NCBI GenBank assembly: GCA_903923395.1
Contig: CAIXXM010000030.1
Span: forward strand, 1 to 64,000
DNA: 64,000 nt
Source of the DNA: an uncultured Acidobacteriia bacterium
GTDB lineage: Bacteria > Acidobacteriota > Terriglobia > Bryobacterales > Bryobacteraceae
Reading direction: 5' to 3'
Shown one piece after another: positions 12,238 to 21,416 of this stretch (its first letter is position 1; each line of letters starts with the position of its first letter). The translations under genes were made by a program, and so were the position numbers. A model generated the notes under the pieces. The model saw nothing but the letters and a program-made list of their open reading frames with translations. It made no database searches and was not told the DNA's origin.

Positions 12238-13878
12238 TCAGCGCGGCGAGCGCAGTTCCTCCAGTTGCCTGCGGCACTGTTGCGCCTCCGGGGCAAGCCG
12301 GCAGGCGACACCAAACTGCGTCAGCGCCTCTTTGCTAAAGCCCAGATTCTTCAGCGCTAGACCGAACAAATATTGGGCAGGATAATCGGCTGGCGCGGCA
12401 TGCGCAGCCTTCTCCAGATGCAGCCTGGCCTTTGCATATTGCTTCAGATCGAGATAAGTGGAGCCGAGATCCCTGCGTGCCAGCGTGTTGCCCGGGTCCC
12501 GCGCCAGGAGTTGTTCGAGTTGTGCCACGGCCTGCCTGGTGCGGCCCTGCGCTAGTGCGAAGACGGCATCCTCGTACATCCGGAACTCGGGCAACCGGTC
12601 TTTCAAATCCGCCCCTGAGCCGCTTCGAACAGTACCCGCCGGTCCGGTGGAGAGATAACCGAGGGAGTTCAACAGCACCCGGTTTTGTTGCACGGCTGGC
12701 GCGGTCGCCACCGGCTTGTTGGTTGCGAGTAACTGGTGCAACTGGTTCCGCATTCCCGTGGCCAGTTTGGTCTGTGCCGCGATGGTGTTGTGCAACTCGC
12801 CGGGATCCTGCGCCAGGTTGTAAAGTTCCGGTTTGGGACTCTCCACGTATTTCCAGACGCCCTGCCGCAGCGTTCGCACCGGGGCCCAGCCAAACGAATC
12901 CTGCGCGTGGACCGTCTCGCCGAAAACCACGCGGCTCAATTCCTGCAGGAACGAGGTGCCTGCGAATGATGTGGGCTTGGCGATCTTCAGAACGTCCAGC
13001 AGCGTGGGTGCCAGGTCAATCAATCCCACCGGCATTTCCACCCGTTCCGGCCTGTTGATTCCCGCCGGCCAGTGGATCACGAGCGGCACATGCAACGTCG
13101 CCTCATAGGCGAAGTAGCCGTGGCTGTACTCGTCGTGTTCGCCCAGACTCTCGCCGTGGTCTGACGTGAGAATGACGATGGACTTCTCCCAAAGCCCCAT
13201 CGATCCCAGGGTCTGTCTGAAACTGCCGAGCACCTGATCCACATACGCCAGTTCGCCATCGTAGCCGCCCAACCGGTAGGGCTTGTGCATATCGTAGAGG
13301 TGAATGAAGGCAAAGACCGGCTGACCGTTGTTCTGCCGCAGCCATTGCAGCGCCGCACGGGTGACCAGCGGAGCATCACGGCGGTCTTTCCCCGCATTTG
13401 GTCCATTCACGGCTCCACCAAAGAAGACGGAACCAGACAACGGGGAAAACGCCGTGTAATGAAACGGACTGTCATAGAAATCGAAGCCCTGGTCAAGCCC
13501 CATTTCCTGTTCGAGAAACACACTGCCGATAAAGGCACCCGTCTTGTAACCGTTGGCCCGTAACACTCCCGCCAGAGTTGTCGCGCCTGCCGGGACCTTT
13601 TGTGCATTCTCCTGTATCCCGTTGGCAAACGGATACGTCGAGGTCATCATCGATGTGTGGGACGGTAAAGTCAGCGGGACCTGTGCGTCCGCATTCGCGT
13701 AAACCGTGCCATGCTGGGCGTAGCCGTCGAGACCGGGCGTAGAGATTTTCCTGTAGCCATAGGCGCTCAGATGATCTGCCCGCAAGGTGTCCACGGAAAT
13801 GAGAATCACAGGTGGTCCGGCAGCCACTCCACAGAGTGGAACCGCCATGAGAAACAATAGAAGTCTGGCCCGGTGCAT
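12238..13878 (-). CDS. Sulfatase-like hydrolase/transferase with C-terminal TPRs
   Basis: 546 residues from ATG at 13878 (MHRARLLLFLMAVPLCGVAAG is a signal peptide; another ATG lies at 13899). The alkaline-phosphatase/sulfatase fold shows ISVDTLRADHLSAYGY, TSDHGESLGEHDEYSHG and metal ligands. The active-site segment is VPLTLPSHTS: the position that holds a Cys or Ser in formylglycine sulfatases (C/S-x-P-x-R) is Thr, and the Arg is His. It is therefore more likely a Thr-nucleophile phospho- or phosphodiesterase or transferase than a true sulfatase. Residues from about 430 form TPR helices. It diverges from the phosphodiesterase operon with about 9 bases between starts. Confidence 0.85.
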   Translation of the reverse strand: MHRARLLLFLMAVPLCGVAAGPPVILISVDTLRADHLSAYGYRKISTPGLDGYAQHGTVYANADAQVPLTLPSHTSMMTSTYPFANGIQENAQKVPAGATTLAGVLRANGYKTGAFIGSVFLEQEMGLDQGFDFYDSPFHYTAFSPLSGSVFFGGAVNGPNAGKDRRDAPLVTRAALQWLRQNNGQPVFAFIHLYDMHKPYRLGGYDGELAYVDQVLGSFRQTLGSMGLWEKSIVILTSDHGESLGEHDEYSHGYFAYEATLHVPLVIHWPAGINRPERVEMPVGLIDLAPTLLDVLKIAKPTSFAGTSFLQELSRVVFGETVHAQDSFGWAPVRTLRQGVWKYVESPKPELYNLAQDPGELHNTIAAQTKLATGMRNQLHQLLATNKPVATAPAVQQNRVLLNSLGYLSTGPAGTVRSGSGADLKDRLPEFRMYEDAVFALAQGRTRQAVAQLEQLLARDPGNTLARRDLGSTYLDLKQYAKARLHLEKAAHAAPADYPAQYLFGLALKNLGFSKEALTQFGVACRLAPEAQQCRRQLEELRSPR

Positions 13879-13887
13879 CTGATTCCG

Positions 13888-15786
13888 ATGATCGTACATT
13901 TCCCTGCATACATTGGTCCCGGTGCCGGATTCGCGTTCGCGGGTTCACTGCTGAGTGTGATTGTCAGCTTCTTCGCAGGGATCTTTTCCTTGGCCCTCTG
14001 GCCCTTTCGAGCCGCCCGCCGCATCCTTCGCCGCCAACGGAACAAGCAACACGCAAAAGTGCGCCGTCTGATCTTTGTTGGCCTCGATGGGCTCGACCCC
14101 AGGCTGACGGACCAATATATGGCGGCGGGACTACTCCCGAACCTCGAAAAGCTGCGCGATACCGGCACTTATTCCCGGCTTCGGACCACTTATCCGGCGC
14201 TGTCTCCCGTGGCATGGTCCACGTTTGCGACAGGCGTCAGCCCGGCGAAGCACAATATCTTTGATTTCCTTAACCGCAGCTTAAAGAATTACGCCCCGGA
14301 ACTCGCGCCTTCCATCGTGCGGGAACCCCGCAACCGCTGGAGCCGACCCTTTGCGGAATCGCGCCGCAGGAGCCAGAGTTTCTGGAAGATCCTGGCGGGC
14401 TATGGCATCCAGAGCACCGTGCTGCGGGTCCCTATCAGCTTTCCGCCGGAGGAATTCGACGGACGCATGCTCTCCGCCATGTGCACACCGGATCTCAAAG
14501 GGACGCAGAGCAGCTTTTCGCTGTTCAAGACCGGCAGTGCGGGGCAGGAACGGACCGGCGGTTCGCAATACCCGTTGTTTCCAGATGGCGAGTTGTTGCG
14601 GGGAGTTTTGGAGGGTCCCGGCGGGATGCCGGGGATCGCGTTTACTTTGCATCCCGGCACCGGGCAATTGCAGATCGGCAAGCAATCGATCACGCTTGCA
14701 GAGGGCGTCTATTCCGATTGGGTCCGTCTCAAGTTCCGGCGGGGTTGGGTGTCGGTTACGGGAATAGCGCGCTTTCTGTGGCGCGGCGGGACACTGTACG
14801 TTACGCCTATACAGATTGATCCTGAAGCGCCCGTGCTCCCCGTCAGCCATCCGCCCTTCTTTGCCAAGTATCTCTCCAAACTCCTGGGCCCATTTGCCAC
14901 GCTGGGAATGGCCGAAGACACCTGGGCGCTGAATGAAAACGCTATCTCCCCAGACGACTTTCTACAGCAGGCTTACCTGACGCTCGCCGAGCGCGAAGCG
15001 ATGTTCACCAACGCCTTGGACCGCAATCGCAATGGCGTGATTGCCTGTGTTTTCGATACGCCCGACCGGGTGCAACACATGTTCTTTCGGGATTTGGATC
15101 AGGCGCCCGGCAGTGCTGTGCTGCGCGACCTCTATCAGCGCATGGATCGCATTGTGGGCAAGACCATGCAACACAGCGGCCCGGATTCCGTCGTAATCGT
15201 GCTCTCAGATCATGGCTTCTGTCACTTCCGGCGCTCGGTCAACCTCAACCGCTGGCTGGTCGAGAATGGCTACATGCGGCTGCACCAAGATGGCAGCATT
15301 GACTGGCCGAATACACGCGCCTACTTCGTCGGTCTGGCGGGCCTTTACATCAACCAAAAGGGCAGGGAAGCACACGGTACGGTAAAAGACGCGGTTGCCT
15401 TGGCCCATGAAATCGCAGCGCGACTCACTGGCCTGTTAGACCCCGAACACAACGCCGTTGCCATCCGGCAGGCCTGGCTGAGCCGTGATCTTTACCAGGG
15501 GCCGTATCTGGATTCGGCGCCGGATCTGATCATTGGTTTTTCCGAAGGCTACCGGGCAGCGTGGGATGCCGCCACGGGCAAGCCCGGGACAAACGTGTTC
15601 GAAGACAACAACAGGCACTGGTCGGGGGATCATTGTGTCGACCCTTCGCTGGTTCCCGGTGTCCTGTTCAGCACGCGCAAGTTCCACGTTGCGCAACCGG
15701 GAATCGAAGATATGGCGGCCACCGCGCTGGACCTCTTCGGTGTGCCGCGCCCGCAATGGATGGAGGGCCAGAGCATATTCCGGTAA
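13888..15786 (+). CDS. Membrane-anchored alkaline phosphatase superfamily protein (type I phosphodiesterase-like), first copy
   Basis: 632 residues from ATG at 13888 (a GTG at 13873 is possible). An N-terminal hydrophobic segment (YIGPGAGFAFAGSLLSVIVS onward, residues 6-38) anchors it, followed by a basic patch RRILRRQRNK. The catalytic domain has the metal ligands FVGLDGLDP, DRVQHMFF, LSDHGFCHF and GDHCVDPSLVPGV, and the nucleophile region ALSPVAWSTFATG with Ser where nucleotide pyrophosphatases often have Thr. It likely cleaves or transfers a phosphoester at the membrane. It heads a chain of overlapping genes and is paralogous to the next one. Confidence 0.85.
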   Translation: MIVHFPAYIGPGAGFAFAGSLLSVIVSFFAGIFSLALWPFRAARRILRRQRNKQHAKVRRLIFVGLDGLDPRLTDQYMAAGLLPNLEKLRDTGTYSRLRTTYPALSPVAWSTFATGVSPAKHNIFDFLNRSLKNYAPELAPSIVREPRNRWSRPFAESRRRSQSFWKILAGYGIQSTVLRVPISFPPEEFDGRMLSAMCTPDLKGTQSSFSLFKTGSAGQERTGGSQYPLFPDGELLRGVLEGPGGMPGIAFTLHPGTGQLQIGKQSITLAEGVYSDWVRLKFRRGWVSVTGIARFLWRGGTLYVTPIQIDPEAPVLPVSHPPFFAKYLSKLLGPFATLGMAEDTWALNENAISPDDFLQQAYLTLAEREAMFTNALDRNRNGVIACVFDTPDRVQHMFFRDLDQAPGSAVLRDLYQRMDRIVGKTMQHSGPDSVVIVLSDHGFCHFRRSVNLNRWLVENGYMRLHQDGSIDWPNTRAYFVGLAGLYINQKGREAHGTVKDAVALAHEIAARLTGLLDPEHNAVAIRQAWLSRDLYQGPYLDSAPDLIIGFSEGYRAAWDAATGKPGTNVFEDNNRHWSGDHCVDPSLVPGVLFSTRKFHVAQPGIEDMAATALDLFGVPRPQWMEGQSIFR

Positions 15787-17507
15787 TTCTCTCGTTGCTG
15801 CTTGCACTCGCTCTGGCCGCTTGCTCGCGTCCCGTGCATCCAAAAACCGTCGTTCTGGGTGTGGATGGCATGGACCCGAACTTTGTCCTCGCTCATTGGG
15901 CAGCACTTCCGAACCTGCACCGGCTGCGAACCTTCGTACCGCTGCGGACCACGAATCCTCCGCAAAGTCCGGTGGCATGGTCTACGTTTTCGACAGGGCT
16001 GCCTCCCGCGGAGCATGGCATTTTCGATTTCGTTCACCGCGACCCGGAGACGCACGCTGCATTGTCTTCCTTCGGCACGGCTGAGCCACCACGTTTCCAG
16101 ATTCCATTGGGTCCATGGGTACTCCCCCTGACACCGGCCCGAACTGTATCCTTCCGCCGTGGGCTTACGTTCTGGGAATTACTCGCCCAGGCGGGCATTC
16201 CCGTCGCCCTCTACCGCATGCCCGCCAACTACCCGCCTGCTCCGGTCGGAGAAGCCCTTGCCGGAATGGGCACGCCCGACCTGGAAGGCACCTTTGGGAC
16301 GTTCACCCTCTACACGGATGATCCAGTAGTGCCCTCGCACGATGTATCCGGCGGCCGGTTTATTCATGTGGAACTGCAAGGCGGGCATGTGGAGCTTCCC
16401 ATACAGGGTCCGCCCGACCCTTACCGTCGCGATCATCGCCCGTTGGGTGCCGCGATCGCTCTCGATACCGACCCGATGGCATCCCTGCTCCACATCCGTA
16501 CGGCAGAGCGTGGGTATCTGTTGCAACAAGGCGAATGGTCCCCTTGGATTTCCATAAGAATCGGGCCGGTACACGGCGCTTTCCGACTGTACGCCGCTTC
16601 CGTACACCCCACGCTCCGGCTCTACCGCTCCCCTTTGCAGATTGACCCGTCTCACCCCGATCTCCCGATCTCACAACCGCCCGCACTTTCCGCGGACTTG
16701 CACCGTCTTGCCGGGGGCTTCTATACACAGGGCATTCCCGAAGATTCCTCCGCCGTCCGGCAAGGCGCATTGACGCTGCCGGAGTATCTGACGCAGTCCG
16801 AAGTGGTGCAGGCAGAGACCCGCCGTCTGCTGGATATCGCGCTGGACCGGTTTCACTCCGGGTTTCTGTTCTTCTACTTTTCAGAGATCGATCAGGACGC
16901 ACACCTGCTCTGGGGCCGTGATGACGAAGCATTGCTGAAGACGTACCAAGCTGTAGACCGGTCGATCGGGCATGTTCTGGACCGGCTTCCCGGTGCTGAT
17001 GTGATTGTGATGTCTGACCATGGCTTTGCGCGCTTCGATACCGCTGTCGATCTGAATGCCTGGTTCCGCGCGGAGCATATCCCCGCGCAGGCGATGGGGC
17101 TGAATGCGGTTTACCTGGAACACCGTGAGGCCGCGCCGCAGATTATGCAGAGATTGCTGGACTGGCGCGATCCAGTCACGGGCAATCCGGTGATCACCAG
17201 CGTCGCGCAGGTCCCGAAGTCCTGGTCGAAATACGCGCCGGATCTGACCATCGGTTATGCGCCCGGTTACCGCGCGGCTTGGGAGACAGCGATGGGAAAT
17301 ACTGGGACTGTGGCTCTTCGCGCGAATGCAGATGCATGGCAGGCCGACCACTGTATCGACCCCGCGGCAGTGCCTGGCGTTCTGTTCACCAACCATGTGG
17401 TTTCGCAAGCCCCGGGTTTGGAGGACCTGCCGGTAACCATAATAAGGGGTTATGGTGTTAGCCATCCCGGCGCGATGAAAGGAAAACTGTTGTGGCAAAG
17501 TCGGTAA
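15756..17507 (+). CDS. Alkaline phosphatase superfamily lipoprotein (type I phosphodiesterase-like), second copy
   Basis: 583 residues from ATG at 15756, overlapping the previous gene by 31 bases. The leader PVILSLLLALALAAC has a lipobox (LAAC), so it should be a lipoprotein, unlike its membrane-anchored paralogue. The same motifs appear in order: VLGVDGMDPNF, the nucleophile region QSPVAWSTFSTG, SEIDQDAHLLW, VMSDHGFARF and ADHCIDPAAVPGV. A tandem pair of phosphodiesterase-like enzymes, one anchored through a helix and one through lipid, suggests successive steps on an envelope polymer. The open frame continues upstream but has no leader there. Confidence 0.84.
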   Translation: MDGGPEHIPVILSLLLALALAACSRPVHPKTVVLGVDGMDPNFVLAHWAALPNLHRLRTFVPLRTTNPPQSPVAWSTFSTGLPPAEHGIFDFVHRDPETHAALSSFGTAEPPRFQIPLGPWVLPLTPARTVSFRRGLTFWELLAQAGIPVALYRMPANYPPAPVGEALAGMGTPDLEGTFGTFTLYTDDPVVPSHDVSGGRFIHVELQGGHVELPIQGPPDPYRRDHRPLGAAIALDTDPMASLLHIRTAERGYLLQQGEWSPWISIRIGPVHGAFRLYAASVHPTLRLYRSPLQIDPSHPDLPISQPPALSADLHRLAGGFYTQGIPEDSSAVRQGALTLPEYLTQSEVVQAETRRLLDIALDRFHSGFLFFYFSEIDQDAHLLWGRDDEALLKTYQAVDRSIGHVLDRLPGADVIVMSDHGFARFDTAVDLNAWFRAEHIPAQAMGLNAVYLEHREAAPQIMQRLLDWRDPVTGNPVITSVAQVPKSWSKYAPDLTIGYAPGYRAAWETAMGNTGTVALRANADAWQADHCIDPAAVPGVLFTNHVVSQAPGLEDLPVTIIRGYGVSHPGAMKGKLLWQSR

Positions 17508-17680
17508 AGCTGGAAAATGCTCTCTGGGACCGGGTTCTGCAAGCCGCCGCGAAGGCTGGCTACAGCAGCCCGGAGGAACTCGTGCTGAACGCGGTGGAGA
17601 AGGAACTGGTTCGTTTGGAAGATGCCGAAGCCTCTGATGCGGTGGAGCGACGCCTGCGTGGCCTGGGGTACATCGAATGA
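17492..17680 (+). CDS. Small RHH-like protein with LRGLGYIE tail
   Basis: 62 residues from GTG at 17492, overlapping the preceding stop by 16 bases. The first half (MAKSVKLENALWDRVLQAAA, then KAGYSSPEELVLNAVEKEL) looks like a CopG/Arc-type ribbon-helix-helix. The tail ends RRLRGLGYIE, a motif resembling the C-terminal LRxLGYI seen in many sulfatase-like proteins. From memory such small proteins recur beside alkaline-phosphatase-superfamily genes, but I cannot confirm that here. It may dock to the enzyme or regulate the operon. Overlap on both sides argues it is real. Confidence 0.7.
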   Translation: MAKSVKLENALWDRVLQAAAKAGYSSPEELVLNAVEKELVRLEDAEASDAVERRLRGLGYIE

Positions 17681-18192
17681 TGCTGTATTTGCTTGCTGTA
17701 CTGTGCGGTGCTGCCGGTACGCTACTGTTCCGCCGCTTCACGAACCATGCAGCGCTGCACCGGGCCACGCGCGGCATCGTGGCGCACTGGCTTGAAATCC
17801 GACTTTACTTTGATGACCCCCGCATGGTCTGGCAAGCCCAGCGGCACTTACTGGTGTGGCACTGGCACCTGCTCCGTGCTTGCGCCCCTGCGTTCTTACT
17901 TACTGGGGCACTTACCGGCGCTGCCTGCGGCTGGCTGGAGCAAACGCTCAGTGCACCGCAGTTATTCCCGGGGCAGGTGGCTGTGCTTACCACCAAACAA
18001 GCGATCCCTGCCGGACTTATCGTGGAAGCCGGGCCTTTGCGCAACGAAGTCGCGCAAACTTCCACTTACAGAGTGCGTGCCAGTCAACATGTGCGAATAA
18101 AGGAGCTGGAACTGCCCCGCGACCACTCCTGGCTCATCCCCTTCACCCTGACACTTACCCTCACAACATGCGCGACTTTCTTACTGTGGTGA
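17677..18192 (+). CDS. Hypothetical membrane protein with SAF-like segment
   Basis: 171 residues; the start overlaps the upstream stop as ATGA. There are hydrophobic helices at about 3-18, 66-88 and 150-170. Between the last two is VLTTKQAIPAGLIVEAGPL, which resembles the first strand of SAF domains (as in CpaB or flagellar FlgA: DIPAGtvltaeDL), so an extracytoplasmic SAF-like fold is possible. I do not recognise the family. Its position between the RHH-like and sulfotransferase-like genes in an overlapping chain suggests a structural or assembly role in the same process. Confidence 0.7.
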   Translation: MMLYLLAVLCGAAGTLLFRRFTNHAALHRATRGIVAHWLEIRLYFDDPRMVWQAQRHLLVWHWHLLRACAPAFLLTGALTGAACGWLEQTLSAPQLFPGQVAVLTTKQAIPAGLIVEAGPLRNEVAQTSTYRVRASQHVRIKELELPRDHSWLIPFTLTLTLTTCATFLLW

Positions 18193-18728
18193 GCGGCGTT
18201 CCCCGCTCAGGTACTTCCATGGTGATGCGGATGCTGGAGGCTGGCGGCATGCCGTTATTGACAGATCACCTGCGTCCGCCGGACCAGTCGAATCCGCATG
18301 GGTATTTCGAATATGAACCGGTAAAACGTCTGCGCGCGGATAAGTCGTGGGTGCCTGCCACTGAGGGGAAAGCCGTCAAGGTCATCTATCGTTTGCTGCC
18401 GGAGTTGCCAGCCGGAGTGCCGGTTCGGATTTTGTTTCTTGAACGCGATCTGCGGGAGGTGCTGGCTTCACAGCGTGCAATGCTCGAAGCCCAGGGGCAG
18501 CGGGTTTCTGCCGCGGATGACGCCCTGATCCTGGCCGCATTTGAAAAGGAACTTGCGGGGGTCCGTCACTGGATGTCAGACAAGGCAAATCTCTACCTCC
18601 CGTTTGCGGTCCTGATCCAACAACCGCTGCACTGGGCGGCCTGCATCGCGGAGTTTATAGACCCCGCGCTGGACATTGCCGCCATGGCAGCGGCTGTGGA
18701 TCCCCGGCTGTATCGGAATCGCATATGA
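18168..18728 (+). CDS. Sulfotransferase-like P-loop protein
   Basis: 186 residues from ATG at 18168, overlapping the previous gene by 25 bases in another frame. The N-terminal loop GVPRSGTSMVMRMLEAGG is the 5'-phosphosulfate loop (PRSGTS) of PAPS-dependent sulfotransferases, and ILFLERDLREVLASQRAML resembles the 3'-phosphate-binding segment. At 186 residues it is shorter than typical members (250-300). It would transfer sulfate from PAPS to a hydroxyl in the cytoplasm. Kinship to other P-loop kinases cannot be excluded. Linkage to phosphodiesterase-like and sulfatase-like genes fits polymer sulfation. Confidence 0.72.
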   Translation: MRDFLTVVSGVPRSGTSMVMRMLEAGGMPLLTDHLRPPDQSNPHGYFEYEPVKRLRADKSWVPATEGKAVKVIYRLLPELPAGVPVRILFLERDLREVLASQRAMLEAQGQRVSAADDALILAAFEKELAGVRHWMSDKANLYLPFAVLIQQPLHWAACIAEFIDPALDIAAMAAAVDPRLYRNRI

Positions 18729-19678
18729 TGACCGCAGCTTCCATGACGCTGCCATCCGTTCTTCTCCTCGTAGCCCTCCCGTTGAGCGCCGCTTCTCCCG
18801 GCAAAGTGACGGAGGTTCCCGAGCCTTGTCCTGCCGGTCCGCTGGTCCGCACGAGTCGCAAACAGCTCTTGGTAGCGGTGCCCAACCTGAAGGATCTGCG
18901 CGTGCAGTTGCGCATTACGCAACCAGCACCAGAGGTTCCGCTCCGGGGCACGGTGGTTCTGGGCAGCGGAGGCAGTGGCGCAGGTTTCTATGCCGGTCCG
19001 CCGCCCGTACAGGCTTTGGTCAAAGAGTTGAGTGATATGGGCTTTCTGGTGGTGGACCGCAACTGGATTGGCGGGTGGCCCACCATGGAGGGTGGCTTGA
19101 AACCGGAGGCGGCGCGCTACGCCACACTCCTTCGCTGGGTCCATGACAGCTTACACAAAGGTGGCAGGTTTGTGGCAACCGGGAATTCCGGTGGTTCGGC
19201 GGAAATCGGCTATGCGCTGACCACTTATGGGCTCGCCGATATTCTTGACACGGCGATCCCGACCTCCGGTCCGCCAGTCGCGCGGCTCGATTACACCTGT
19301 ACCGCCGAAGCTTCTCCTGCGTGGAGCGAACTGTGTTCGTCCATCGTGCCGACAGGCGCAATGCAGTGCAAGCCAGGCTGCATGCTGGGCCCGGGCAATG
19401 GCGTGTGCCGCCAAACCGGCCCGCGACCACCGCCCGAACAACTCTTGAATGACAGCGTCGTGCACCCGGAAGCAGTGCTCTCGTATCCAAAGACCAGACT
19501 GGTCTTCCTCTTTGGCGCGCTCGATTGTGACGAACCTGTTCCCTCCGGCCTGACCTGGGCCACCAGAGTCAAGACGGAGAAGCGGATCGAGTTTGTGCCG
19601 AACACGCCGCACGCCATTATGTCGACACCAGAAGGCCGGGCGGCGATCAGACGCGTGATCGATGAGGCCACGCGCTGA
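18725..19678 (+). CDS. Exported alpha/beta hydrolase-like protein
   Basis: 317 residues; the start overlaps the sulfotransferase stop as ATGA. The leader MMTAASMTLPSVLLLVALPLS is a signal peptide. An oxyanion-like GSGGSGAGFY near residue 80 and a nucleophile elbow GNSGGSAEIG near residue 158 point to an alpha/beta hydrolase, with FGALDCDEPV and a late NTPHAIM for the Asp and His. Several cysteines in the cap region (CTAEASPAWSELC, MQCKPGCM, GNGVC) suggest disulfides in the periplasm. The substrate is unknown; an esterase acting on the product of this operon is inference. Confidence 0.75.
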   Translation: MMTAASMTLPSVLLLVALPLSAASPGKVTEVPEPCPAGPLVRTSRKQLLVAVPNLKDLRVQLRITQPAPEVPLRGTVVLGSGGSGAGFYAGPPPVQALVKELSDMGFLVVDRNWIGGWPTMEGGLKPEAARYATLLRWVHDSLHKGGRFVATGNSGGSAEIGYALTTYGLADILDTAIPTSGPPVARLDYTCTAEASPAWSELCSSIVPTGAMQCKPGCMLGPGNGVCRQTGPRPPPEQLLNDSVVHPEAVLSYPKTRLVFLFGALDCDEPVPSGLTWATRVKTEKRIEFVPNTPHAIMSTPEGRAAIRRVIDEATR

Positions 19679-20304
19679 TGGCGAATCCCTGGCTGCAAAT
19701 CCCCTTGGCGGATTACGAAGGCCACATGCAGTCCGCCGGGGTAGAGCAACTGGCCGTGCTTTCCCGGCTGTTTGGAGAAGTTCTCCACCTCTGCAAGCCG
19801 GCTTCTGTTGCCATTTTGGGGGTAGCCGGAGGAAACGGACTGGAACATATCGATAGCAGCGTGACTGGGCGGATTGCCGGGGTGGATCTGAACCCGGAAT
19901 ATCTTGCCATTGCGCGGGAGAGGTTTTCTCACCTGCAGGGGCTCGAACTGCATTGCGTTGATTTGTCGATTTCGAGACTGCGACTCGCGCCATTGGAACT
20001 GGTGCACGCGGCTCTGGTGTTCGAGCATGCCGGTGTAGGGCTGTGCCTCGAAAACGCGTTGTCTCTGGTTGCACCCGGAGGCGTTTTCTCGGTTATCCTG
20101 CAACTGCCGAGTGAGATATCGCAGGGTGTTGCGGCGAGTCCGTTCGCGTCCATTCAACTGTTGAAGCCGAACTTCGCCTTGATCGATGTGGCTTGGTTCC
20201 GGCAAACGATTGCGGCGCGGGGCTTTGTCCTGTCGCAGGAAGCTACGCATTCGCTGGCGGGTGGGAAGAGCTTTTGGGCCGGGTGTTTTGCGCGGGATTT
20301 ATAA
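19678..20304 (+). CDS. Class I SAM-dependent methyltransferase
   Basis: 208 residues; the ATG shares its first base with the TGA stop of the preceding gene. The SAM-binding Rossmann motif I is VAILGVAGGNGLEHI (residues 42-56), followed by the acidic strand GRIAGVDLNPEYLAIARERF and LELHCVDLS. The post-motif ALSLVAPGGVFSVI is typical. It is a cytoplasmic small-molecule or lipid-type methyltransferase with unknown acceptor. It is the last gene of the overlapping chain begun at 13888. Confidence 0.85.
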   Translation: MANPWLQIPLADYEGHMQSAGVEQLAVLSRLFGEVLHLCKPASVAILGVAGGNGLEHIDSSVTGRIAGVDLNPEYLAIARERFSHLQGLELHCVDLSISRLRLAPLELVHAALVFEHAGVGLCLENALSLVAPGGVFSVILQLPSEISQGVAASPFASIQLLKPNFALIDVAWFRQTIAARGFVLSQEATHSLAGGKSFWAGCFARDL

Positions 20305-20354
20305 CGCCAGCATTTTCTCTGTTACCTTTTTCCGCCAAATGCTTACCGCGTAGT

Positions 20355-21416
20355 GTGGACATCTTCCGAACCCCCATCCTGGCCATCGCCCTGGCTATCT
20401 GCCCGACTTTGCCGGCCTTCTCCGAGGTGGCGCTGCAATACAGCGGTTCTTTCGGCTCCTCCGGCAGCGGAACCGGGCAGTTCAGTTCCATTGCAGGCGT
20501 GGCCGTGGACAGTGCAGGCAATGTCTATGTCGCTGACCAGGCGAATAACCGGATCGACCGTTTTAATCCGAATGACTTCGCCGGTACCTTTACCTCCTTC
20601 GGCTCCGCAGGCGCTGGCAGCGGCCAGTTCAATCATGTGTCCGGTGTCGCTGTGGACGGTGCCGGAAACATCTATGTCGCGGACCAGGGTAACAATCGGA
20701 TTGACGTTTTTCAGCCGAATGACTTTTCGGGAACCTTTACATCCTTCGGCGCGGCGGGCTCTGGAAATGGCCAATTTGCTGCCCCTTCAGGCTTAACTGT
20801 GGACGGTGCCGGAAACGTCTATGTGGCGGACTCCAATAACAACCGGATCGACCGCTTCAATCCGAATAACTTCGCCGGAACCTTCACATCCTTCGGGTCT
20901 GCGGGCTCTGGAAACGGCCAATTTGAATTCCCTGATGCGGTTACCGTCGATAGCTCGGGGCAAGTTTCCGTGGCGGATGGATTTAACTTCCGGCTGGATC
21001 GTTTTGATCCCACTAACTTCGTTGGTACTTTCGCCACCTTCGGCACCTACGGGCACGGCAGCGGACAAATCACCGGGGTAACGGGGCTCGCGGCAGATAA
21101 CGCGGGCAATATTTATGCGGCTGACACCGGGAACCACCGGATCGACGTGTTTGACCCCGCCAACTTTGCGGCGACATTTATCAGTTTCGGCAGTGCCGGT
21201 TCTGGACCTGGACAATTCAGCGGCTCTCTGGGCGTGGCCGTGGATCGTGCCGGGGACGTGTTCGTCTCAGACGCGCAGAACAACCGGATTGTGGAACTTT
21301 CCTCAGCGACAGTCGCAGCGCCCGAGCCCTCGTCCTTCCTGCTGGCGGGTTGCGGAGTAATTCTGGCGGGCATCTGCCGGCACCAACGGGGCTGGTTCCG
21401 GACATCCCGCCGCTAA
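20355..21416 (+). CDS. NHL-repeat propeller protein with PEP-CTERM sorting signal
   Basis: 353 residues from GTG at 20355 (VDIFRTPILAIALAICPTLP is a signal peptide). It contains five full 49-residue repeats and a partial sixth of the type GVAVDSAGNVYVADQANNRI followed by FxPNxFAGTFTSFGSAGSGxGQF, an NHL six-bladed propeller. The C-terminus is APEPSSFLLAGCGVILAGIC then basic residues, a canonical PEP-CTERM tripartite tail recognised by exosortase. It should be exported, cleaved and presented at the surface or in matrix. No exosortase gene is in this window. It starts 50 bases after the methyltransferase, so separate transcription is possible. Confidence 0.87.
   Translation: MDIFRTPILAIALAICPTLPAFSEVALQYSGSFGSSGSGTGQFSSIAGVAVDSAGNVYVADQANNRIDRFNPNDFAGTFTSFGSAGAGSGQFNHVSGVAVDGAGNIYVADQGNNRIDVFQPNDFSGTFTSFGAAGSGNGQFAAPSGLTVDGAGNVYVADSNNNRIDRFNPNNFAGTFTSFGSAGSGNGQFEFPDAVTVDSSGQVSVADGFNFRLDRFDPTNFVGTFATFGTYGHGSGQITGVTGLAADNAGNIYAADTGNHRIDVFDPANFAATFISFGSAGSGPGQFSGSLGVAVDRAGDVFVSDAQNNRIVELSSATVAAPEPSSFLLAGCGVILAGICRHQRGWFRTSRR
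20472..21290 (+). repeat. 147-base tandem repeats within the NHL gene
   Basis: The DNA encodes about five and a half tandem units of 49 codons. Units one to three are close copies at the DNA level (for example the shared run AACCGGATCGACCG and CCTTCGG motifs), while units four to six have diverged. This suggests recent unit duplication within the propeller gene. Confidence 0.75.

Follow-up and report, generated by a model that had tools for sequence, protein, structure and literature searches.

A conserved gene unit of paired phosphodiesterase-type enzymes and an Oxa1-superfamily-like membrane protein, with a recurrent sulfotransferase-like neighbour

We have analysed a stretch of 64,000 nucleotides (the window; positions 1 to 64,000 of the forward strand of contig CAIXXM010000030.1, assembly GCA_903923395.1) from an uncultured Acidobacteriia bacterium of the family Bryobacteraceae. 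It contains a chain of seven overlapping genes on the plus strand between 13888 and 20304, with a further gene diverging from its head. Comparison with other genomes indicates that the first four genes of the chain are a conserved unit, smaller than the chain itself: two phosphodiesterase-type enzymes of the alkaline-phosphatase (AP) superfamily, named AP1 and AP2, a small protein resembling ribbon-helix-helix (RHH) proteins, and a membrane protein related to the Oxa1 superfamily. By the same comparison the sulfotransferase-like gene that follows them is a recurrent fifth member of the unit. The features of the locus are as follows.

12238 to 13899, minus strand: SulfTPR, an AP-superfamily enzyme of the Sulfatase fold with C-terminal tetratricopeptide repeats (TPRs), secreted-looking (Pfam Sulfatase and TPR_19)
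13888 to 15786, plus strand: AP1, phosphodiesterase-type, with the predicted fold of the nucleotide pyrophosphatases/phosphodiesterases (NPPs) and one N-terminal transmembrane (TM) helix (Pfam Phosphodiest, AlphaFold2 model)
15756 to 17507, plus strand: AP2, paralogous to AP1 and bearing an L-A-A-C lipobox (Pfam Phosphodiest, hhalign, motif)
17492 to 17680, plus strand: RHH-like protein of 62 amino acids (weak RHH_4, invariant motifs)
17677 to 18192, plus strand: Oxa1-superfamily-like membrane protein of 171 amino acids (family profile match to MJ0480, model of a homologue)
18168 to 18728, plus strand: sulfotransferase-like protein, predicted to depend on 3′-phosphoadenosine 5′-phosphosulfate (PAPS) (Sulfotransfer_3, profile, adjacency, tree)
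18725 to 19678, plus strand: alpha/beta-hydrolase-like protein, exported, with a G-N-S-G-G motif read by eye (translation; probable local addition)
19678 to 20304, plus strand: S-adenosyl methionine (SAM) methyltransferase (Methyltransf_12/25/11; probable local addition)

Successive genes of the chain overlap by 31, 16, 4, 25, 4 and 1 bases. A preliminary description of the region had already reported the seven genes, with overlaps of 1 to 31 bases, and the diverging AP-superfamily gene, all of which is read directly from the sequence. Homologues of the first five genes stand in matching arrangements elsewhere, so the chain is not a run of chance open frames. The 5′ ends of SulfTPR and AP1, as called, have 12 bases in common (13888-13899), so that the promoters would have to be intragenic. 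We note that a later methionine may be the real start of the SulfTPR gene. The Pfam labels of AP1 and AP2 were obtained with translations taken from 13891 and 15783, and none of the eight proteins lies above the cut-off among the NCBIfam matches listed.

The conserved core

A relative of AP1 or of AP2 is present in 43 of the 61 genomes of a kin set that includes the genome itself. Twenty loci around AP1 were compared in 19 relatives ranging from the same genus to the same order, some of them on short contigs. AP2 adjoins AP1 in 15 of these loci and the membrane protein is there in 13 (one as a fusion), while the sulfotransferase, hydrolase and methyltransferase are at none of the 20. The preliminary description had made the conservation of gene order in close relatives a point on which its operon would stand or fall; in most of the relatives looked at the core is kept, and the tail is not.

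The alignment of AP1 was also used to scan 84,980 species, each represented by a single genome. This gave at least 579 confirmed relatives, from which the best 80 loci were kept. The core was counted in the 64 of these that have 4.5 kb or more of sequence downstream of AP1 (48 from Acidobacteriota and 16 from other groups); the grouping was read from record titles, mostly of metagenome-assembled genomes, and genes at these loci were called mechanically (first start after a stop), so that gaps and overlaps there are approximate. Within 5 kb of AP1 in the 48 Acidobacteriota loci we find AP2 in 32, the RHH-like protein in 37 and the membrane protein in 37, with all three in 31. The corresponding numbers for the 16 remaining loci are 15, 14 and 14, with all three in 14 and none in one. 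By title, the full core outside Acidobacteriota occurs in Polyangia, KSB1, Bacteroidota and several groups of Planctomycetota, and also at loci titled Omnitrophota, Deltaproteobacteria, Dadabacteria and Poribacteria, together with four that bear no group name. The commonest order is AP1, AP2, RHH-like protein, membrane protein, with variants (for example at loci L103, L114, L182 and L254). The preliminary description took the tight coupling to imply one process; this fits the core, which recurs across groups and has members fused at four loci, but does not extend to the set of seven.

Two core copies occur in one genome of the window's genus (L071 and L072, on contigs 17 and 137 of G006). Acidobacteriaceae bacterium KBS 96 (L112) also carries the core, with no sulfotransferase seen at the operon. 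At eight loci of Bryobacterales or Terriglobia (L141, L142, L144, L146, L149, L152, L153 and L158) AP1 stands without the core, beside recurrent groups of neighbours of 85, 69 and 192 amino acids. Other gene groups found at four or more of the best 80 loci, named by eye, include an ABC ATPase (5 loci), a MacB-like permease (4) and a nitroreductase-like protein (5).

The phosphodiesterases and the membrane protein

Both AP1 and AP2 match Pfam Phosphodiest (120.9 and 110.1 bits), in agreement with the preliminary description of two phosphodiesterase-like enzymes. The hhalign alignment of one with the other covers 603 columns with E 5.6e-154, by which AP1 and AP2 are full-length paralogues. The AlphaFold2 model of AP1 has a pLDDT of 89.9. 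It superimposes with VIA-align on an NPP-family enzyme over 353 residues (Z 28.8, rmsd 3.8) and on phosphonoacetate hydrolase (PhnA) with Z 26.7, and the top Foldseek rows are SPAP, NPP and PhnA. By its model AP1 is thus of NPP-type fold; AP2 is assigned to it through its alignment to AP1. AP1 carries large additions, because only 353 of the approximately 575 residues past the anchor align with NPP.

Residues D66, S105, D392, H396, D440, H441 and H581 of AP1 are invariant in a 12-row alignment, and these plus one more are invariant in 52 rows. In AP2 the residues D28, S62, D370, H374, D412, H413 and H523 are invariant in an 11-row alignment. From the order of the motifs and the alignment with PhnA we take these to be the metal ligands and nucleophile of the NPPs. 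On this assignment both enzymes would have complete metal sites with serine at the nucleophile position. NPPs and PhnA have threonine at this position. AP1 thus has the fold, the metal ligand set and the nucleophile position in common with the NPP/ENPP enzymes and phosphonoacetate hydrolase. Unlike them, AP1 and AP2 have a serine nucleophile, large additions, an anchor or a lipobox, and occur as a tandem pair on what are predicted to be opposite faces of the membrane.

The latter prediction comes from the N-termini. The net charge of the 20 residues on the C-terminal side of the TM helix averages +6.25 over 120 AP1 sequences, and it is +3 or greater in 119 of the 120; the mean on the N-terminal side is -0.18. 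The positive-inside rule therefore predicts a cytoplasmic catalytic domain. An extra N-terminal hydrophobic stretch is present in 99 of the 120. Cys14 of AP2, within the lipobox, is invariant in the 11-row alignment, and by this motif AP2 looks like a lipoprotein. Inside and outside copies of one enzyme are thus the predicted arrangement.

The membrane protein had been described as having a SAF-like strand. This was not borne out: Pfam SAF gives no match to the window copy or to any of 86 family members at E<=0.1. Instead the profile of the 86-row family, compared with all PDB chains, matches MJ0480 (5c8j), a YidC-like protein of archaea, with E 4.1e-12, as the sole match at E<=5. The match spans TM1, hairpin and TM2, with a second, weak stretch over the last TM helix. 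At E<=0.1, 29 of the 86 members match the Pfam family EMC3_TMCO1, the best of them with 3.8e-7; the window copy itself has no match to EMC3_TMCO1 or to any other meaningful Pfam family.

An AlphaFold2 model was made of a homologue (L121:14128-14940, pLDDT 95.9) rather than of the window copy. It has helices at residues 2-19, 24-46, 49-68, 73-116 and 247-262, which, labelled by their order, comprise a leading helix, then TM1, then a helical hairpin that leads into TM2 and, following a beta domain, TM3. The similarity of the beta domain to Ig-like folds is middling (Z up to 6.5 over 76 residues). The best 50 rows for the homologue with Foldseek and VIA-align are mainly Ig-like matches of the ectodomain, and none is an Oxa1-family structure; these rows bear on the ectodomain and not on the membrane part. 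Taken with the profile match, the model suggests that in this family an Ig-like domain has been inserted between TM2 and TM3 of an Oxa1-superfamily core. In the family alignment the ectodomain of the 171-residue window copy is much shortened. Members of the Oxa1 superfamily are described as sharing a core made up of three TM helices and a hairpin on the cytoplasmic side, in which the link between H4 and H5 is hypervariable (PMC8675477). The extra Ig-like domain occupies the position of this link. The family shares with MJ0480 (DUF106, PF01956; EMC3/TMCO1 group) the TM1-hairpin-TM2 region and, weakly, the last TM helix; unlike MJ0480 it is bacterial, has the Ig-like beta domain, and shares its operon with phosphodiesterases.

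An ordinary YidC is encoded elsewhere in the genome, by a separate gene (G000:C88). Comparison of the family profile with this YidC by hhalign gave a probability of 0.7%, a weak test in that YidC was a single sequence. A match of PF01956 elsewhere in the genome (C75, E 0.07) was set aside; the frame reads by eye as an oxidoreductase and not as a YidC. In a control with 14 well-known genomes PF01956 gave matches in nine at the loose threshold of E<=1, only three of them above the cut-off.

At four loci the membrane protein is joined to an AP-superfamily enzyme in one open frame, meaning that there is no stop codon between the two parts and nothing more. It is joined to the TPR enzyme at L088:5682-7880 (732 amino acids), at L147:14304-17024 (906 amino acids, titled Polyangia) and at L108:1-1685 (561 amino acids, the frame being cut by the contig end), and to AP2 at L128:12210-14840 (876 amino acids). 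L088 and L108 are from genomes of the window's genus.

The 62-residue protein between AP2 and the membrane protein matches RHH_4 with E 0.017, below the cut-off. Its family profile finds NikR with E 0.07, after two designed proteins at 0.05, and the matches to NikR and CopG are weak. The family has invariant GY-S..E and C-terminal LGY motifs.

The sulfotransferase, neighbouring enzymes and the operon tail

The preliminary description had called the fifth product sulfotransferase-like, and it matches Sulfotransfer_3 just above the cut-off (27.5 against 27 bits). The family profile matches SULT over its C-terminal half (E 1.4e-4) and TPST over the P-loop (E 0.0012). A motif G-x-P-R-x-G-T-S, together with R93 and S101, is invariant in 15 rows; these presumably have the roles in PAPS binding of the corresponding motifs in known sulfotransferases. 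By motif and profile the protein belongs to the PAPS-dependent sulfotransferase class, and transfer activity is predicted. In addition to the profile similarity to SULT and TPST there are differences, in that this family is only about 190 amino acids long and is a frequent neighbour of AP-superfamily enzymes.

The association was examined in 297 Acidobacteriota genomes, 77 of which are matched by the membrane-protein profile. The sulfotransferase profile, which was built partly from operon-linked copies and so favours that subfamily, finds a member in 39 of these 77, compared with 10 of the 220 without the membrane protein. In 28 of the 39 the gene lies within 10 kb of that for the membrane protein, where 0.23 would be expected were genes placed at random. 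These 28 come from 16 genera, although 10 are from one genus and the genomes counted are related. In the remaining 11 the distance is 10-14 kb (2) or the genes are on different contigs (9). APS (adenosine 5′-phosphosulfate) kinase (PF01583), which supplies PAPS, is present in 72 of the 77 genomes and lies within 10 kb of the membrane protein in 12 of the 72, against 0.50 expected on the same presumption; that of the genome studied here is away from the operon.

The sulfotransferase directly follows the membrane protein at L124, L160, L162, L163, L169, L228, L235 and L236, and at L228 and L235 a PAPS-synthase-like gene comes next in the row. At other loci (for example L229, L230, L237, L253, L255 and L257) it is upstream of AP1. 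In a tree of 44 sequences (in which the L241 row is labelled standalone although it lies 2.5 kb from a membrane protein) the window sulfotransferase and the copy at the operon of L124, also from Bryobacterales, form a pair with support of 98/95. On these data the association of sulfotransferase and operon is recurrent, not fixed. Members of the family outside the operon occur in the window's genus as well, either by themselves or as the last part of long proteins that join Phosphodiest, TPRs and sulfotransferase in one chain (L097:8536-11166 and L098:7590-10529), a second link between these types of enzyme. No common theme was seen by eye among the neighbours of the off-operon genes.

SulfTPR adjoins the core in several relatives. 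The preliminary description called it sulfatase-like, which is right for the fold (PF00884 Sulfatase, 142.7 bits, with TPR_19) but not for the active site. Formylglycine sulfatases carry a C/S-x-P-x-R core motif. This is not present in SulfTPR, the nucleophile motif of which reads T-L-P-S-H in translation, with threonine at the position of the formylglycine Cys or Ser. It is therefore better named a sulfatase-fold phospho- or sulfo-ester enzyme. Among 45 distinct sequences found with its profile, 16 have T-x-P-S-H, three C-x-P-S-R and three another motif, and 23 were not caught by the pattern. A third AP-superfamily enzyme near AP1 (C3, of about 285 amino acids and without an evident signal) is found at about 30 of the best 80 loci, in 31 genes, and 37 of 42 C3 relatives have T-x-P-S-H. 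A further relative of about 430 amino acids (AP3) is directly upstream of AP1 at L165, L172, L173, L176, L178, L185 and L186, from five genomes titled Aminicenantes and two others; CoA-ligase-like and thioredoxin-like groups, named by eye, are found at four AP3-bearing loci each.

The last two genes of the chain are best seen as local additions outside the conserved unit, judging from their distribution. The hydrolase is found in one of the 61 kin-set genomes, its own, and has no meaningful Pfam or NCBIfam family. The methyltransferase, whose label was upheld by Methyltransf_12/25/11, is present in 7 of the other 60 genomes, always at other places; in G012, for example, it is on contig 364 and AP1 is on contig 11. 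Neither has a profile match in the other 160 loci. Their inclusion by the preliminary description in the same process thus finds no backing in other genomes. Just downstream (20331-21416) is an NHL-repeat protein with a PEP-CTERM-like end; it matches ScyF of the scytonemin clusters with 188 bits, below the 350-bit cut-off.

Two promoter-like sites (mean of 2.4 in shuffled sequence) and 12 terminator-like sites (mean 8.5, sd 3.0) were counted, and were not used for conclusions. An origin in phage or defence systems was set aside. Here only the methyltransferase was matched, once in each search and weakly: by an alcohol-dehydrogenase family in PHROGs and by mad2 in PADLOC. Spread on plasmids was likewise set aside; the plasmid collection has no match for the membrane protein, the hydrolase or AP1.

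Proposed function and alternatives

We suggest that the products make up a membrane-bound unit that sulfates one envelope component and processes its phosphodiesters, a reading in which our confidence falls somewhat short of even. The sulfotransferase would move sulfate from PAPS onto an acceptor at the cytoplasmic face, while AP1, anchored with its catalytic domain in the cytoplasm, and AP2, as a lipoprotein outside, would act on phosphodiester-linked groups of this acceptor or of one related to it, by cleavage or transfer, on the two sides of the membrane. The Oxa1-like protein would serve as a hub in the membrane, at which the acceptor or the enzymes are passed on or assembled, and the RHH-like protein would regulate or tether. 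A lipid or glycan of the envelope would be the most likely acceptor. The hydrolase and methyltransferase would have been added at the operon end in this genome. The sulfate step is proposed because of the sulfotransferase and the links to PAPS genes, the phosphodiester step because of the fold and active site of AP1 and AP2, and the role of hub because of the Oxa1 homology and the fusions. Like the preliminary description we infer the decoration of an envelope polymer, and the link to sulfate that it proposed is strengthened by the recurrent adjacency of sulfotransferase and PAPS-synthesis genes. A more specific form of the proposal is possible, but we hold it doubtful: that a bacterial EMC3-type relative with an Ig-like ectodomain, the paired phosphodiesterases and the PAPS sulfotransferase build or pass a sulfated envelope component, the membrane protein representing a branch of the Oxa1 superfamily that is distinct from YidC and dedicated to the modification of small molecules or lipids, and not to general protein insertion.

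A number of observations weigh against the role in sulfation and phosphodiester processing. The sulfotransferase family is missing, at the cut-off used, from 38 of the 77 genomes that have the membrane protein, so sulfation is not obligatory, and the gene is at the operon in none of the 20 loci compared around AP1 in relatives. Supported branches of its tree force at least three changes between operon and other positions. APS kinase is not close to the membrane protein in 60 of 72 genomes, 54 of these by virtue of different contigs. In 10 of the 48 Acidobacteriota loci AP1 has neither AP2, the RHH-like protein nor the membrane protein within 5 kb. The lipobox pattern is present in only 36 of 54 AP2 sequences, and the topology of AP1 has the positive-inside rule as its sole basis. 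Genes for the synthesis of glycan polymers or lipids were not recognised among the groups at four or more of the best 80 loci, where group representatives were read by eye and some groups had no identification.

It is conceivable, though rather unlikely in our judgement, that the operon serves the biogenesis of enzymes, the Oxa1-like protein being a dedicated insertase or assembly factor for AP-superfamily enzymes and the sulfotransferase a frequent but separate partner. YidC/EMC-type insertases favour N-out/C-in anchors, and by its charge bias AP1 is predicted to be of this type; the kinship with archaeal YidC, the fusions to the TPR enzyme or AP2, and the genomes that have the core without a sulfotransferase would all be in keeping with such a role. 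Yet the extra hydrophobic stretch of most AP1 proteins could act as a Sec signal, the genome carries its own YidC, and the 10 Acidobacteriota loci at which AP1 lacks the membrane protein nearby also argue against it. We think it improbable that the secreted AP enzymes scavenge phosphate or sulfate from organic esters, with the rest of the products importing or using them. The NPP and PhnA folds, the secreted look of the TPR enzyme, the lipobox of AP2 and the ABC-ATPase group near the operon would suit scavenging; but AP1 is predicted to face the cytoplasm, the ABC ATPase is the sole importer-like group recognised and mixes unlike members, and the addition of sulfate by a sulfotransferase with its PAPS synthase runs in the opposite direction.

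Two further explanations seem to us quite improbable. AP1 and AP2 might hydrolyse PAP, PAPS or dinucleotides, thereby relieving product inhibition of the sulfotransferase or handling a nucleotide signal. Their closest folds do include nucleotide-cutting NPPs such as Xac NPP and ENPP1, and there is the link to PAPS genes. However, in 38 of the 77 genomes the core has no member of the sulfotransferase family with it, the removal of PAP requires neither a lipoprotein paralogue nor an Oxa1-like protein, and AP1 has its large additions to the NPP fold. Alternatively there may be no common process, the first four genes being the unit and the sulfotransferase a passing gene that comes to rest at the same hot spot. 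The position changes in its tree and its absence from the 20 loci in relatives would be explained in this way, but not the co-occurrence of the two families, the proximity in 28 of 39 genomes across 16 genera, or the arrival of PAPS synthase as well.

Sulfation is also a feature of the synechan-type sulfated polysaccharide clusters, where, in the portion of the report available, it is directed to an extracellular polymer (PMC13125312). The loci described here differ from these, in that genes for polymer synthesis were not recognised as recurring. Synechan-type clusters are polymer-synthesis clusters. In the open-licence literature we found no description of the gene set, nor of a bacterial EMC3- or archaeal-type Oxa1 protein in an operon with phosphodiesterases. 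In the parts of two reports available, the Oxa1-superfamily protein of bacteria is given as YidC, and PF01956 proteins as archaeal or eukaryotic (PMC8887752, PMC8675477). The folds of the parts are known. What appears to be undescribed is their combination, together with the Oxa1-like branch in bacteria.

A second bacterial branch that by profile is nearer to the archaeal and EMC3 type, and that is kept within an operon in many groups, would bear both on the spread of the Oxa1 superfamily and on what such cores may do besides the insertion of proteins. Several proteins left unnamed by the family libraries become one testable unit, and attention is drawn to sulfate modification in both Acidobacteriota and Planctomycetota.

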